From positions 2,157,001 through 2,221,000 of the forward strand of contig NZ_CP012073.1 in NCBI RefSeq assembly GCF_001262075.1: a stretch of DNA of 64,000 nucleotides. Reading direction: 5' to 3'. The notes beneath the pieces were generated by a model. It was not told where the DNA came from. It was given only the letters and a program-made list of their open reading frames with translations, and ran no database searches. This stretch comes from Ottowia sp. oral taxon 894 (lineage in GTDB: Bacteria; Pseudomonadota; Gammaproteobacteria; Burkholderiales; Burkholderiaceae_C). This document shows positions 11,228 to 52,000 of the stretch, piece after piece; within the stretch, counting starts at the first letter, position 1, and every line of letters begins with the position of its first letter. Both the position numbers and the translations under genes were made by a program.

Positions 11228-11251
11228 CCCATGCCTCAAGGCAACGCACTG

Positions 11252-11340
11252 CGGGCGCAGCGGGCGCAGCGGGCGCAGCGGGCGCAGCGGGCGCAGCGGG
11301 CGCAGCGGGCGCAGCGGGCGCAGCGGGCGCAGCGGGCGCG
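11252..11340. repeat. 9-bp tandem repeat, about ten copies
   Basis: The unit CGGGCGCAG is repeated without change for 89 bases. All frames stay open (Arg-Ala-Gln or Gly-Ala-Ala repeats). The surrounding frames have no recognised domain and no convincing ribosome site, so no gene is called. Perfect identity of units implies recent expansion. Confidence 0.9.
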
Positions 11341-14752: not shown

Positions 14753-16807
14753 GTGACCACGCCTACACCCAGCGCCGCCGCGCCTGCCATGCCCGCTGCC
14801 GTCATCCAGCGCGACGGCCAGCGCGCCGTTTTTGACGCCTGCCGCATCCGCTCGGCCATTGCCCGCGCGGGCGCGGCCACGGGCGAGTTCGGCGACGCGC
14901 AAGCCGCGCTCCTGGCCGATGAGGCGTGCCGCGTGCTGGCCTACCGCTGGCCGGGTGGCGCGCCGCACATCGAGCAGATTCAGGACGTGGTGGAGCAAAC
15001 GCTCGTTGCCGCGCGCCACATGGCCACCGCGCGCGCCTACATGGCCTACCGCCAGCGCCGCGCCACGCTGCGGGCCGACGCGCAGACGCTGGTGGACGTG
15101 CAAAGCTCCATCAACGAATACCTCACGCGCGCTGACTGGCGGGTGAACGCCAACGCCAACCAGGGCTATTCGCTGGGCGGCCTCATCCTGAACGTGGCGG
15201 GCAAGGTCACGGCCAATTACTGGCTCTCGCATGTGTATGCGCCCGAAATCGGCCAGGCGCACCGCGAGGGCGACATTCACATTCACGATCTGGACATGCT
15301 CAGCGGCTACTGCGCGGGCTGGTCGCTGCGCACGCTGCTCACCGAAGGGCTGAACGGCGTGCCGGGCAAGGTGGAGGCCGCGCCGCCAAAGCACATGTCT
15401 TCCGCCGTGGGGCAGATCGTCAATTTCCTGGGCACGCTGCAAAACGAATGGGCGGGCGCGCAGGCGTTTTCGTCATTCGACACCTACATGGCCCCCTTCG
15501 TGCGCAAGGACGGCATGGACTACGCCGCCGTGCGCCAGTGCATGCAGGAGATGATTTACAACCTGAACGTGCCTTCGCGCTGGGGCACGCAAACGCCTTT
15601 CACCAACCTCACCTTCGACTGGGTGTGCCCTGAAGACTTGCGCGAGCAAGTGCCCGTGATCGGCGGCGAGGAAATGCCTTTCGCCTACGGCGACTTGCAG
15701 GCCGAGATGGACCTGATCAACCGTGCCTACATCGACGTGATGACCACGGGCGATGCGAAAGGGCGCGTGTTCACCTTTCCCATTCCCACCTACAACATCA
15801 CGCCCGACTTTCCGTGGGAGAGCGAAAACGCCGGGCGCCTTTTTGCCATGACGGCCAAATACGGCCTGCCGTATTTCCAGAACTTCATCAATTCCGAGCT
15901 GAAGCCCAACATGGTGCGCTCCATGTGCTGCCGCCTGCAACTGGATTTGCGCGAGCTGCTCAAGCGCGGCAACGGCCTGTTTGGCAGCGCCGAGCAAACG
16001 GGCAGCGTGGGCGTGGTTACCGTCAATTGCGCGCGCCTGGGCTACCTGCACGCGGGCGACGAGGCCGCGCTGCTGGACGCGCTGGGCCGCCTGCTGGAGC
16101 TGGGCAGCCAGAGCCTGGAAGTCAAGCGCAAGCTCATCCAGCGGCTGATGGATCAGGGCCTGTTCCCCTACACCCGGCGCTACCTGGGCACGCTGCGCAA
16201 CCACTTTTCCACGCTGGGCGTGAACGGCATCAACGAAATGGTGCGCAACTTCACGCGCGGCGAGCAGGACATCACCACCGCATGGGGCCACGCCTTCGCG
16301 CTGCGCCTGCTGGACTTCGTGCGCAAGCGCATCACCGGTTTTCAGGAGCGCACCGGCCATCTCTACAACCTGGAAGCCAGCCCCGCCGAAGGCGCAACCT
16401 ACCGCTTCGCCAAGGAAGACCTCAAACGCTGGCCGGACATCCTGCATGCGGGCACGCCCGGCAAGCCCTACTACACCAACTCATCGCAGCTGCCCGTGGG
16501 CTTTACCGACGACCCCTTCGAGGCGCTGGCGCGGCAGGAAGACTTGCAAACCAAATACACCGGCGGCACCGTGCTGCACCTGTACATGGGCGAGCGCATA
16601 TCGGACGCCGCCGCCTGCCGCGAGCTGGTGCGCCGCGCCCTCACGCGCTTTCGCCTGCCTTACATCACCGTCACGCCCACTTTTTCCGTCTGCCCCGTGC
16701 ACGGCTACCTGGCGGGCGAGCACCCATACTGCCCCTTGTGCGACGCCGAAAAGCTGGCGGCCAAACGCCAGGCCATTGAGCGCCAGCAGCAGGCGCGGGC
16801 GGCTTGA
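14753..16807 (+). CDS. nrdD: anaerobic ribonucleoside-triphosphate reductase, catalytic part lacking the glycyl-radical segment
   Basis: Class III ribonucleotide reductase, which reduces NTPs to dNTPs without oxygen. The 684-residue product starts with GTG after GGGAG. It has an N-terminal ATP-cone (VIQRDGQRAVFDACRIRSAI) and then the glycyl-radical barrel (NANANQGYSLGGLILNVAGK, REGDIHIHDLDMLSGYCAGW, NLTFDWVCPEDL). It ends with a zinc site CPVHGYLAGEHPYCPLCD. In related enzymes the radical motif RVxGY follows this zinc site. Here the protein stops 23 residues past it, and the motif is on the separate ORF at 17106. NrdG is encoded downstream. Family identity is firm, and the split is directly visible. 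Confidence 0.93.
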   Translation: MTTPTPSAAAPAMPAAVIQRDGQRAVFDACRIRSAIARAGAATGEFGDAQAALLADEACRVLAYRWPGGAPHIEQIQDVVEQTLVAARHMATARAYMAYRQRRATLRADAQTLVDVQSSINEYLTRADWRVNANANQGYSLGGLILNVAGKVTANYWLSHVYAPEIGQAHREGDIHIHDLDMLSGYCAGWSLRTLLTEGLNGVPGKVEAAPPKHMSSAVGQIVNFLGTLQNEWAGAQAFSSFDTYMAPFVRKDGMDYAAVRQCMQEMIYNLNVPSRWGTQTPFTNLTFDWVCPEDLREQVPVIGGEEMPFAYGDLQAEMDLINRAYIDVMTTGDAKGRVFTFPIPTYNITPDFPWESENAGRLFAMTAKYGLPYFQNFINSELKPNMVRSMCCRLQLDLRELLKRGNGLFGSAEQTGSVGVVTVNCARLGYLHAGDEAALLDALGRLLELGSQSLEVKRKLIQRLMDQGLFPYTRRYLGTLRNHFSTLGVNGINEMVRNFTRGEQDITTAWGHAFALRLLDFVRKRITGFQERTGHLYNLEASPAEGATYRFAKEDLKRWPDILHAGTPGKPYYTNSSQLPVGFTDDPFEALARQEDLQTKYTGGTVLHLYMGERISDAAACRELVRRALTRFRLPYITVTPTFSVCPVHGYLAGEHPYCPLCDAEKLAAKRQAIERQQQARAA

Positions 16808-16857
16808 GAACCAGCTCCAAACCTGTTCGATGACAGGCGCATTTCACTCTGTTTTCG

Positions 16858-16935
16858 AGAGCGAATTCAAGGCCTGAAAAACGCATTTGCCGCACGGTCT
16901 CACGGGACTTGATGCAATCAAATTGGTAGCGAAAT
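16858..16935 (-). repeat. dispersed repeat A, copy 6, inside the nrd locus
   Basis: Reverse orientation: GAGCGAATTCAAGGCCTG, AACGCATTTGCCGCA, then GGGACTTGATGCAATC. It lies in the 298-bp gap between the nrdD body and the glycyl-radical ORF, which otherwise holds nothing recognisable. A TTGATGCAATCAA palindrome (16909-16921) resembles an FNR site but has a 3-base spacer. Confidence 0.6.
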
Positions 16936-17105
16936 AAATGATGGTCCCGGGAGCGTTTTGACGGCAGGATCTGAGCAGGCTGCAAACGCCTGTTCAAGAA
17001 ACGGCCCGGTCTGGCGCAAGCCTTCCATCACGCGCGGCAGCAGCCATCAAAGAAGTGGCGACAGCCTTCTTCCCCTTTTCTTCAACCACCCGAAAGGAGC
17101 TTTCC

Positions 17106-17312
17106 ATGAGCAAAACCATCGCCATCCGGCCGGTTGCGGCGCCTGCCGTCGACGCCGTGCAACTCACCGACGAAGAGCGCCAGCCCTGCGAAGTCTGGAC
17201 GCGCGTGATGGGCTACCACCGCCCCGTTGCCAGCTTCAACATCGGCAAACAGGGCGAGCACGCCGAGCGGCGCTTCTTTGCGGAACCTGCCGCGCTGAGC
17301 CGTTGCGCCTGA
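17106..17312 (+). CDS. nrdD: separate glycyl-radical domain of the anaerobic ribonucleotide reductase
   Basis: A 68-residue ORF preceded by AAAGGAGCTTTCC, a good ribosome site. Residues 18-60 read VQLTDEERQPCEVWTRVMGY then HRPVASFNIGKQGEHAERRF. This is the C-terminal glycyl-radical loop of class III reductases, with G36 in RVMGY as the expected radical glycine. In relatives this segment is continuous with the zinc site of NrdD. Two readings are possible: a functional split subunit that docks on the 14753 protein and is activated by NrdG, or a broken gene. The intact motif, own ribosome site and position before nrdG favour function. It resembles in concept the stand-alone cofactor GrcA/YfiD of pyruvate formate-lyase but is not homologous to it. 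Confidence 0.85.
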   Translation: MSKTIAIRPVAAPAVDAVQLTDEERQPCEVWTRVMGYHRPVASFNIGKQGEHAERRFFAEPAALSRCA

Positions 17313-17380: not shown

Positions 17381-17470
17381 ATTTGCTCCTTCATCAATAG
17401 CATGCTTTTCAATATGTTCTAGGACATCATGGCATTTGAGATGCCTGAATTCGCTCCTCTTTTTGATGTG
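17381..17470 (+). repeat. dispersed repeat A, copy 7, overlapping the nrdG start
   Basis: Forward orientation: ATTTGCTCCTTCATCAATAG, TTCTAGGACATCATGG, then GAATTCGCTCCTCTTTTTGA. The nrdG ATG at 17429 and its first dozen codons lie within this copy. Confidence 0.65.
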
Positions 17471-18193
17471 AAAACACCTGCCAGCCTGCCGTCAGAGACT
17501 GCCCGCCCTGCGGCGGAAAGCGGCAAGCCCCTGCGCCTGGGCGGCCTCACGCCGCTGACCACCATCGACTTTCCGGGCCGCCTGGCCGCCGTTCTCTACT
17601 GCCAGGGCTGTCCGTGGCGCTGCACCTACTGCCACAACACGGAGCTGCTGGACGCCGCCACGCCGCCCGCCCTGCCGTGGCCGGACGCGCTGGCCTTTTT
17701 GCACCGGCGGCGCGGCCTGCTGGACGGCGTGGTCTTCTCCGGCGGCGAACCCACCTTGCAGACTGCTCTTGCCGACGCCCTTGCCGCCGTGCGCGCGCTG
17801 GGCATGCAAACGGCCCTGCACACCGCCGGCATGTACCCGCAGCGCCTGGCCGCGCTGCTGCCGCAGCTGGACTGGGTGGGGCTGGACATCAAGGCCCCCG
17901 CGCACCGGCACGACGCCATCACCGCCACCCCCGGCAGCGCCGGCCGTCCCCGGCAGGCTCTGCGCGCGCTGGCGGACAGCGGCATCGACTTTGAATGCCG
18001 CACCACCTGGCCCCCGGGCCTGTTCAGCGCCAGCGAATTGCTGGCCCTGGCTGACGAACTGCGCGCCAGCGGCGTGACTTGCTGGGCCGTGCAGGAATGC
18101 CGCACCCCCGCCGCTCCCGCCTGGACGCTCACGCCAGAGCAAATCCGCCAGCTTGGCGCGGGCTTTGAGCGCTTTACCCTGCGGCGCGCCTGA
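17429..18193 (+). CDS. nrdG: anaerobic ribonucleotide reductase activase, radical SAM
   Basis: Uses a [4Fe-4S] cluster and S-adenosylmethionine to make the glycyl radical on NrdD. The 254-residue product has [20 protein letters not shown] followed by the cluster motif C61-PWR-C65-TY-C68, then [11 protein letters not shown] (SAM-binding GGE) and [15 protein letters not shown]. The first ~35 residues ([20 protein letters not shown]...) are not part of the family. They correspond to the end of repeat A copy 7, which also supplies AGGA and the ATG. A GTG at codon 14 is an alternative start. The gene lies 116 bases after the glycyl-radical ORF. Confidence 0.92.
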
Positions 18194-51052: not shown

Positions 51053-52000
51053 ATGCTGCGTTTCATCCGCTCCGCTCTTCACATGCTGTTTCTCACCGTG
51101 ACGGTGATTCCGTGGTCGCTGACGGTGGTTGCGCTGTCGCCCTTCGTGAGCAAGCAGTGGCTGTATGGCTTCTGCCATGTGTGGGTGCGCATGGTTGTGG
51201 CGTCGGCCAGGCCGCTGCTGGGCATCCGCACGCGGGTGCGGGGGCTGGAGAACCTGCCTGCCGGCCCGCAGGCCGCCGCCGTGCTGCTCGTCAAGCATCA
51301 GTCAGCCTGGGAAACCTTCGTGCTGCCCACGATAACGCCGCATCCGCTTGCCTACGTTTTCAAGCGCGAACTCGCGCGCATTCCCTTCTTTGGCTGGGTG
51401 CTGGCGCGGCTGAACATGGTGCGCATCGACCGGGGCCGCCCCACGGAAGCCTTCACCCGCATGGTCACGCAGGGCCGCCGCCTGCTGGCGCAAGGCATAT
51501 GGGTGGTCATCTTCCCCGAAGGCACACGCGTGGCGCGCGGCCAGCAGGGCAAATACCGCAGCGGCGGCACGCGGCTGGCCATTGAATGCGGTGTGCCCGT
51601 GGTTCCGGTGGCCGTGACTTCGGCGCGCTGCTGGCCGCCGCGCGCCTTCGTCAAAAGCCCTGGCATCGTTGATATTTCATTTGGCCCGCTCATTGCCAGC
51701 CAGGGGCGCAAGGCGGATGAGCTGATGCGCGAAGTGCAAGACTGGATCGAAGCCGAAATGCGGCGGCTCGATCCGCAGGCCTACGCCGGCGCTGCCGCCC
51801 TGCCGCCATCAGACGGCGGGCCGGCCGATGGATCGGCCCTCTGCGCGCCCCAGCCTGTCTGCGCGAACGCCGGCCTGGCAGAAAACAGCGATGGCGGCAG
51901 CGGTGATGGCGGCAGCGGTGATGGCTGCAGCGGTGATGGCTGCAGCGGTGATGGCGGCGGCGGTGATGGCGGCGGTGGCGATGGCGGCGGTGGCGACTGA
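51053..52000 (+). CDS. PlsC-like 1-acylglycerol-3-phosphate acyltransferase with repeat tail
   Basis: Inner-membrane lysophosphatidic acid acyltransferase of phospholipid synthesis. The N-terminal helix (residues 8-30) is followed by motif I as KHQSAWETF (H82, with E87 where most members have Asp), NMVRIDRGRP, motif III FPEGTR (154-159) and motif IV VPVVPVAVTS. After residue 245 the 315-residue protein runs into low-complexity sequence. The last ~35 residues are GDGGS/GDGCS/GDGGG repeats encoded by a 15-bp tandem array. The tail is not part of the family and may be dispensable. The stop is two bases before the DUF45 gene start. Confidence 0.85.
   Translation: MLRFIRSALHMLFLTVTVIPWSLTVVALSPFVSKQWLYGFCHVWVRMVVASARPLLGIRTRVRGLENLPAGPQAAAVLLVKHQSAWETFVLPTITPHPLAYVFKRELARIPFFGWVLARLNMVRIDRGRPTEAFTRMVTQGRRLLAQGIWVVIFPEGTRVARGQQGKYRSGGTRLAIECGVPVVPVAVTSARCWPPRAFVKSPGIVDISFGPLIASQGRKADELMREVQDWIEAEMRRLDPQAYAGAAALPPSDGGPADGSALCAPQPVCANAGLAENSDGGSGDGGSGDGCSGDGCSGDGGGGDGGGGDGGGGD
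51890..52000 (+). repeat. 15-bp tandem repeat in the acyltransferase 3' end
   Basis: About seven units of GGCAGCGGTGATGGC and variants, in frame, encode (Gly-Ser-Gly-Asp-Gly)n. Because the unit is a multiple of three, copy-number change would alter tail length without a frameshift. Confidence 0.85.

Follow-up and report, generated by a model that had tools for sequence, protein, structure and literature searches.

The 64,000-nucleotide stretch of Ottowia sp. oral taxon 894 DNA analysed here (the window) very probably encodes, to judge from its sequence, a functional class III (anaerobic) ribonucleotide reductase in two chains: a 684-residue NrdD body without the glycyl-radical loop and a separate chain of 68 residues that carries it. 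The piece is separate in all 33 family genomes with the body, in 66 of the 69 such genomes of the order, in 78 of the best 80 named loci and on plasmids, which argues for a conserved two-chain reductase. The literature, in those parts that were consulted, treats a class III reductase as an enzyme of one chain; a whole branch in denitrifiers and pseudomonads appears to be encoded as two.

Domain content and layout of the locus

The NrdD body (alpha chain; 14753–16807, plus strand, GTG start codon) comprises an ATP-cone, a barrel and a zinc site. It matches NF006126 at 1111 bits and positions 2–531 of the 562 of the Pfam model PF13597 (NRDD; E 6.7e-169), with the ATP-cone (PF03477) at residues 17–104. 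The separate chain (17106–17312, plus strand, ATG start) matches positions 531–562 of the same model (E 2.8e-7). Since the two stretches abut in one Pfam model, the body and the small ORF are complementary halves of one chain, and the cut between them falls at the boundary of the zinc site and the glycyl loop. PF13597 was the only Pfam match of the small ORF at E values up to 1, with none to PF01228, and a search of the genome gave no PF01228 match either.

Of the features by which a class III NrdD is recognised, the body has the NRDD catalytic domain and the ATP-cone, together with the finger-loop cysteine and the C-terminal zinc-site residues, where the metal is predicted. The SMCCR codons of the finger loop (15920–15934, plus strand) are the same in all 50 rows of the alignment, and C628, H631, C641 and C644 (first-row numbering) of the body's C-terminal zinc site, CxxH-x9-CxxC (16691–16741, plus strand), are likewise invariant. 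The radical glycine is not in this polypeptide but on the 68-residue chain, as Gly36 in an RVMGY motif (codon 17211–17213, plus strand), which in models of a relative lies within one residue of T4 Gly580. The dedicated radical-SAM activase, nrdG of the NrdG2 type (17429–18193, plus strand; TIGR02495, 184 bits), is the next gene and the sole TIGR02495 match of the genome, which is a single contig of 2.93 Mb with one body, one small ORF and one NrdG2 match.

The gap between the two ORFs (16808–17105) is 298 bp, the longest among the 32 family loci read, and the Shine-Dalgarno sequence of the small ORF, AAAGGAG, lies at 17093–17099 on the plus strand; a 5- or 6-base match is found in 31 of the 32 family loci. 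The original prediction had described a 684-residue body that stops soon after its zinc site without RVxGY, with the motif on a 68-residue ORF with its own ribosome site, 298 bp downstream and before nrdG. Both descriptions are borne out by the ORF coordinates, by AAAGGAG and by the end of the PF13597 match of the body at 531 of 562. Searches of the gap for a promoter- or terminator-like site on the plus strand, for a telling inverted repeat and for an FNR box with a 4-base spacer found none, and in these searches no function for it emerged. By eye, a near-palindrome at 16909–16921, TTGATGCAATCAA, resembles an FNR/Dnr box with a 3-base spacer instead of the 4-base one, and could provide the small gene and nrdG with a promoter of their own.

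The one-chain NrdD enzymes of E. coli, T4 (1h78), Thermotoga maritima (4u3e) and Prevotella copri (8p23) share with this system a homologous body, a zinc site before the glycyl loop, an NrdG activase and, in some of them, an ATP-cone. In contrast to the window's enzyme, their glycyl loop forms the C-terminal end of the catalytic chain itself, with the radical glycine at Gly580 in T4, Gly621 in T. maritima and Gly711 in P. copri. In a relative from a Roseateles sp. MAG (locus L220) body and piece share a frame and are separated by a single TGA, and the read-through chain of 725 residues was folded with AlphaFold2; the models are single tethered chains with the natural stop read through and carry no interface score. 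Two runs with different alignments gave pLDDT values of 76.5 and 76.8 and pTM values of 0.71 and 0.74. Residues 681–690 average 73 and 84 in pLDDT and residues 691–700, which include Gly695, 55 and 57; past about residue 702 the values drop below 50, and the second model falls below 50 in the finger loop (372–397) as well. VIA superposed the models on T4 NrdD with an rmsd of 2.7 and 2.5 Å over 471 and 473 residues. Both alignments end with residue 702 on residue 587, which puts Gly695 on Gly580, the glycine offset being read from the ends of the alignment ranges. Those other alignments to the T4, T. maritima and P. copri enzymes which extend into the piece match to within about two residues, the exception being that of the first model with 4u3e, in which the glycine is eight residues off; some VIA rows stop near residue 622–626, short of the piece. 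As modelled, the hairpin of the small chain would dock at the place that the C-terminal loop occupies in a one-chain NrdD.

Conservation and history of the separate chain

A full-length body is present in 33 of 200 family genomes and the small ORF in the very same 33, while the remaining 167 have neither the full-length body nor the small ORF; the pairing is therefore not a matter of chance. The 167 include two genomes of the window's genus, one genome (G003) with two body fragments of 71 and 49 per cent identity and another (G113) with a different, distant NrdD at 28 per cent. The piece is separate in all 32 of the family loci read as DNA, and the 33rd (G025) was judged separate from the short, 71-residue open frame around its piece. 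Across the 32 loci all three relative frames of body and small ORF are used (8, 9 and 15 loci), and the gap, measured to the best start, varies between -4 (the ORFs overlapping by 4 bp) and 298 bp. Over a 37-codon core, the small ORF of the window compared with 29 relatives gives a median dN of 0.07 and dS of 0.70 (27 of the 29 pairs finite), and third-position entropy across 30 loci is 0.76 versus 0.28 and 0.31 at the other positions. By these measures the small ORF is under purifying selection.

The original prediction had named three findings that would speak against a genuine split, namely a continuous nrdD in related genomes, decay of the small ORF and a sequencing error joining the frames. 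No continuous nrdD of this type was seen among the family relatives (32 of 33 loci read, G025 by its open frame), and dN far below dS is the opposite of decay. The sequencing error is excluded by the three relative frames, by the ORFs' own stop and start and by the Shine-Dalgarno match in 31 of 32 loci. The proposed check, whether both ORFs are always separate and conserved, gave a separate piece in every one of the 33 family genomes with the body. Its statement that known relatives have one chain applies to NrdD of the E. coli, T4 and Thermotoga types; among the groups sampled, the present type of NrdD is as a rule encoded as two chains.

Beyond the family, 80 of 250 genomes of the order have a PF13597 match of any kind. 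The piece is present in all 69 with this body type, by small-ORF profile search and set comparison. The 66 calls of a separate ORF were made from stop codons or a differing frame in the coordinates, with the DNA read for part of them, and in the other three (f37) body and piece are fused into one chain by a short linker. Three genomes of this set with an E. coli-type body only (G203, G251 and G324) have no such small ORF, and one MAG in 580 contigs (G340) has the piece without a body, its contig ending upstream of the piece. The class set gave a match in 28 of 276 genomes (21 with a separate piece, 5 fused and 2 with partial matches only). In the phylum set 47 of 299 genomes matched, mostly through a one-chain enteric-type NrdD, and a separate piece was found in 11, several of them shared with the family, order or class sets. 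The body adjoins the piece in all of the best 80 named bacterial loci, out of at least 570 confirmed relatives; only two, both Maricaulis MAGs, are fused, although the 80 were chosen by the small-ORF motif and so give no measure of how frequent fused forms are. The split ones include Pseudomonas, Stutzerimonas stutzeri, Billgrantia, Vreelandella, Janthinobacterium, Achromobacter and Thiocapsa, and in some loci both ORFs are in the same frame with a single stop between. Pseudomonas aeruginosa, a species outside the 80, has an NrdD that we take to be of about 675 residues. On comparison of these sequences the split is conserved at the level of family, order and class, and also on a plasmid from the Campylobacterota.

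Several variant bodies were encountered. Those of L194, L204, L226 and others (Halomonas-type, Maricaulis) are seemingly without the ATP-cone, their match to the window body starting at about residue 104–117. In an E. coli-type NrdD (L149, in G923) the glycyl piece is set off from the body match within one frame, through an insertion or an independent split, and at G557:C2:195825-198362 a split-type body occupies an open frame of 1021 residues whose two body matches are about 930 bp apart, possibly an intein or other insertion. NrdD matches with in-frame TAA codons occur in two 0.9-Mb genomes of the phylum (G874:C4:123722-125521 and G859:C23:2165-3811).

Among 72,556 plasmid records 28 match the small chain, and six were inspected. 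Cupriavidus necator H16 pHG1 has, in this order, a 676-residue body, a 66-residue piece and nrdG, a layout that Bradyrhizobium pNK6c and Sulfuricurvum pSULKU01 resemble. The C. metallidurans and Paracoccus plasmids have split loci with no listed genes, and on Allochromatium vinosum pALVIN01 the piece occurs without a body in the 7 kb examined. In the annotated plasmid records the small gene is labelled NrdD, and database records carry entries for both pieces; the split may account for entries named 'NrdD' in which the radical site is missing. NrdDG of H16 is essential for complete denitrification, as stated in the portion of PMC2864759 consulted.

A FastTree phylogeny of 164 bodies without their C-terminal columns (seven short rows, 30 rows below 30 per cent identity, two body-less loci and loci duplicating others were left out) has three changes between fused and split, with the fused f37 and Maricaulis rows inside the split clade. 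The history that this suggested, one split and two re-fusions, is not established, as a single clade of all split rows was not rejected in an AU test with IQ-TREE on 47 rows (p 0.56), the constrained tree being 3.6 log units better. One origin of the split would fit both results.

Unlinked, prophage-like and phage copies

Two draft genomes have their only small ORF away from the body, in one (G206, 40 contigs) at a distance of 9.5 kb with opposite-strand genes between and in the other (G254, 280 contigs) on a different contig. Two further candidates were rejected, G262 because the body, a B12-binding radical SAM/DUF4070 gene, the small ORF and nrdG lie on one strand with that single gene intervening, and G343 because contig C9 ends just past the body, an assembly break. 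A radical SAM gene with DUF4070 adjoins the small ORF in L239, L243 and L245 (B12-binding in the first two).

Extra small-ORF copies besides the linked one occur in five genomes of the order (two in total in G274, G300, G356 and G422, three in G432) and in G676 of the class set. That of G422 is near an endolysin and a tail-fibre assembly protein, that of G300 near an Rz-like spanin and a family-19 glycosidase, that of G432:C16 near a neck protein with an NlpA lipoprotein on the other side, that of G676 near RecT and that of G274 near a DUF3363 protein. The copy in G356:C25 is flanked by a radical SAM/DUF4070 gene and a methyltransferase, and the one in G432:C6 has no named neighbour.

A scan of viral contigs gave 185 confirmed relatives of the small chain. 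Among the best 80 of these, 79 stretches hold the motif ORF and none has an NrdD body or nrdG by tblastn, with at least 2.5 kb of upstream sequence available in 54 of the 79. Fifty viral records, which may be fragments, were searched whole, and each has exactly one PF13597 match, all within positions 508–562. A PHROGs scan of ORFs from 12 of these 80 loci revealed phage genes in ten, including those for DNA polymerase, head or virion, head-closure, portal, tail-chaperone, tape-measure, terminase and replication-initiation proteins; the ORFs tried in L297 and L321 gave no phage gene. The 79 viral small chains fall into 50 clusters at 85 per cent identity, and every one of the 79 keeps the radical glycine in an RVMGY-type hairpin. 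The small chain of the window and three of the phage ones match part of phrog_4132, labelled 'unknown function', and the INPHARED phages gave one weak match. The phage copies suggest an auxiliary gene for which no function has been named. In eight of the viral chains (L249, L250, L253, L265, L272, L273, L294 and L322) an extra N-terminal Cys/His-rich stretch (C-x-H ... C ... C..C) precedes the glycyl hairpin, perhaps as a zinc knob of its own.

Proposed mechanism, related systems and competing explanations

The two chains very probably form the enzyme together. The large chain would supply the allosteric cone, the catalytic barrel, the thiyl-forming cysteine of the finger loop and the zinc platform, and the 68-residue chain only the glycyl-radical hairpin. 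NrdG would put the radical on Gly36 of the small chain, from where it would oxidise the finger-loop cysteine of the body. Once oxygen had cut it at the radical glycine the small chain might be swapped, with 68 residues instead of about 750 to replace, and phages that bring a copy of it might sustain dNTP synthesis in the host. We regard it as an even chance that the split exists for the sake of exchange or repair, and as mildly probable that the phage copies are working substitute subunits. The full proposal, of a mobile, exchangeable glycyl-radical subunit whose hosts replace the oxygen-cut peptide while many phages carry a spare to revive or boost dNTP synthesis, is tentative, its likelihood falling slightly short of even. 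It is suggested by the unlinked only-copies, the extra prophage-like copies and the stand-alone phage copies that keep the glycine.

GrcA/YfiD of E. coli and Y06I of T4 are also small stand-alone radical-glycine proteins, in a host and a phage. GrcA/YfiD, however, has PF01228 homology whereas the small ORF here matches PF13597 only, and it is a spare for a pyruvate formate-lyase that has its own glycine. As the NrdD body has no radical glycine, the small chain here would be a subunit first. The likeness to GrcA drawn in the original prediction gains strength from the unlinked, prophage-like and phage copies; that the peptide is detachable and exchangeable is what we infer. If the exchange reading is true, this would to our knowledge be the first time that a glycyl-radical enzyme besides pyruvate formate-lyase was seen to have a spare part. 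In the text of PMC8683613 available to us YfiD and Y06I are the only validated spare parts, both for pyruvate formate-lyase, and spares for other such enzymes are considered possible, a question that becomes directly testable. The locus offers a natural system for adding, removing, labelling or mutating the radical carrier independently of the catalytic chain.

NrdJa/NrdJb of Pseudomonas aeruginosa (split class II) and NrdA of Aeh1 (split class I) similarly have one reductase chain in two ORFs, but they belong to other classes, and here the radical hairpin alone is cut off. From the sections consulted, PMC4520616 gives the class II NrdJab as a unique split reductase in a free-living organism, and PMC3267527 presents both Aeh1 NrdA and NrdJab as split reductases. 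PMC3653736, in its corresponding sections, describes nrdD in pieces in some cultured phages (phiAS4 and others); unlike the present case these are broken copies of the phage's own nrdD, and no free glycyl-radical chain is described there. The open-licence literature, as far as covered, gave no account of a cellular split NrdD or of a free NrdD radical subunit, subscription papers such as Siedow 1999 (H16 nrdDG) being outside its scope.

The small gene adjoins nrdD and nrdG in most bacteria read, so that obligate subunits without exchange fit equally well, and since fused forms exist (f37 and the Maricaulis MAGs) the split is not needed for function. Both designs work, then, and both observations favour neutral gene fission, in which the small chain is obligate, tightly bound and never exchanged and the phage copies are passengers. 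This is a possibility to be taken seriously, if a doubtful one, because the unlinked only-copies, the extra prophage-like copies and the 50 phage-contig clusters, all with the glycine, are hard to explain as passengers. The phage copies might also be inhibitors that titrate NrdG or block the host body and so turn host dNTP synthesis off or redirect it. Redirection of nucleotide metabolism is common among phages, and no body partner was found in the 50 viral records searched whole. The radical glycine kept in 79 of 79 hairpins would, however, be unneeded by a blocker, and we consider inhibition unlikely.

A single chain made out of both ORFs by recoding, splicing or protein joining would suit the loci in which they share a frame with one stop between. 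It hardly suits the occurrence of every relative frame, gaps that vary between an overlap of 4 bp and 298 bp, a Shine-Dalgarno sequence and ATG of the small ORF's own and unlinked genes, and is most improbable. The length of the window's gap among the family loci, the two same-genus genomes without either gene and the nrdD fragments of G003 might be taken for signs of a recent gene break or a pseudogene in the window genome. This is refuted by the conservation of the split over family, order, class and a Campylobacterota plasmid and by dN far below dS, which leave it practically no likelihood.

Elsewhere in the window, a perfect 9-bp tandem repeat of 9.9 copies, GCGGGCGCA, occupies 11251–11339 directly after a gene that reads as lexA-like from its ORF, and a 15-bp tandem repeat of 6.6 copies lies at 51890–51988.
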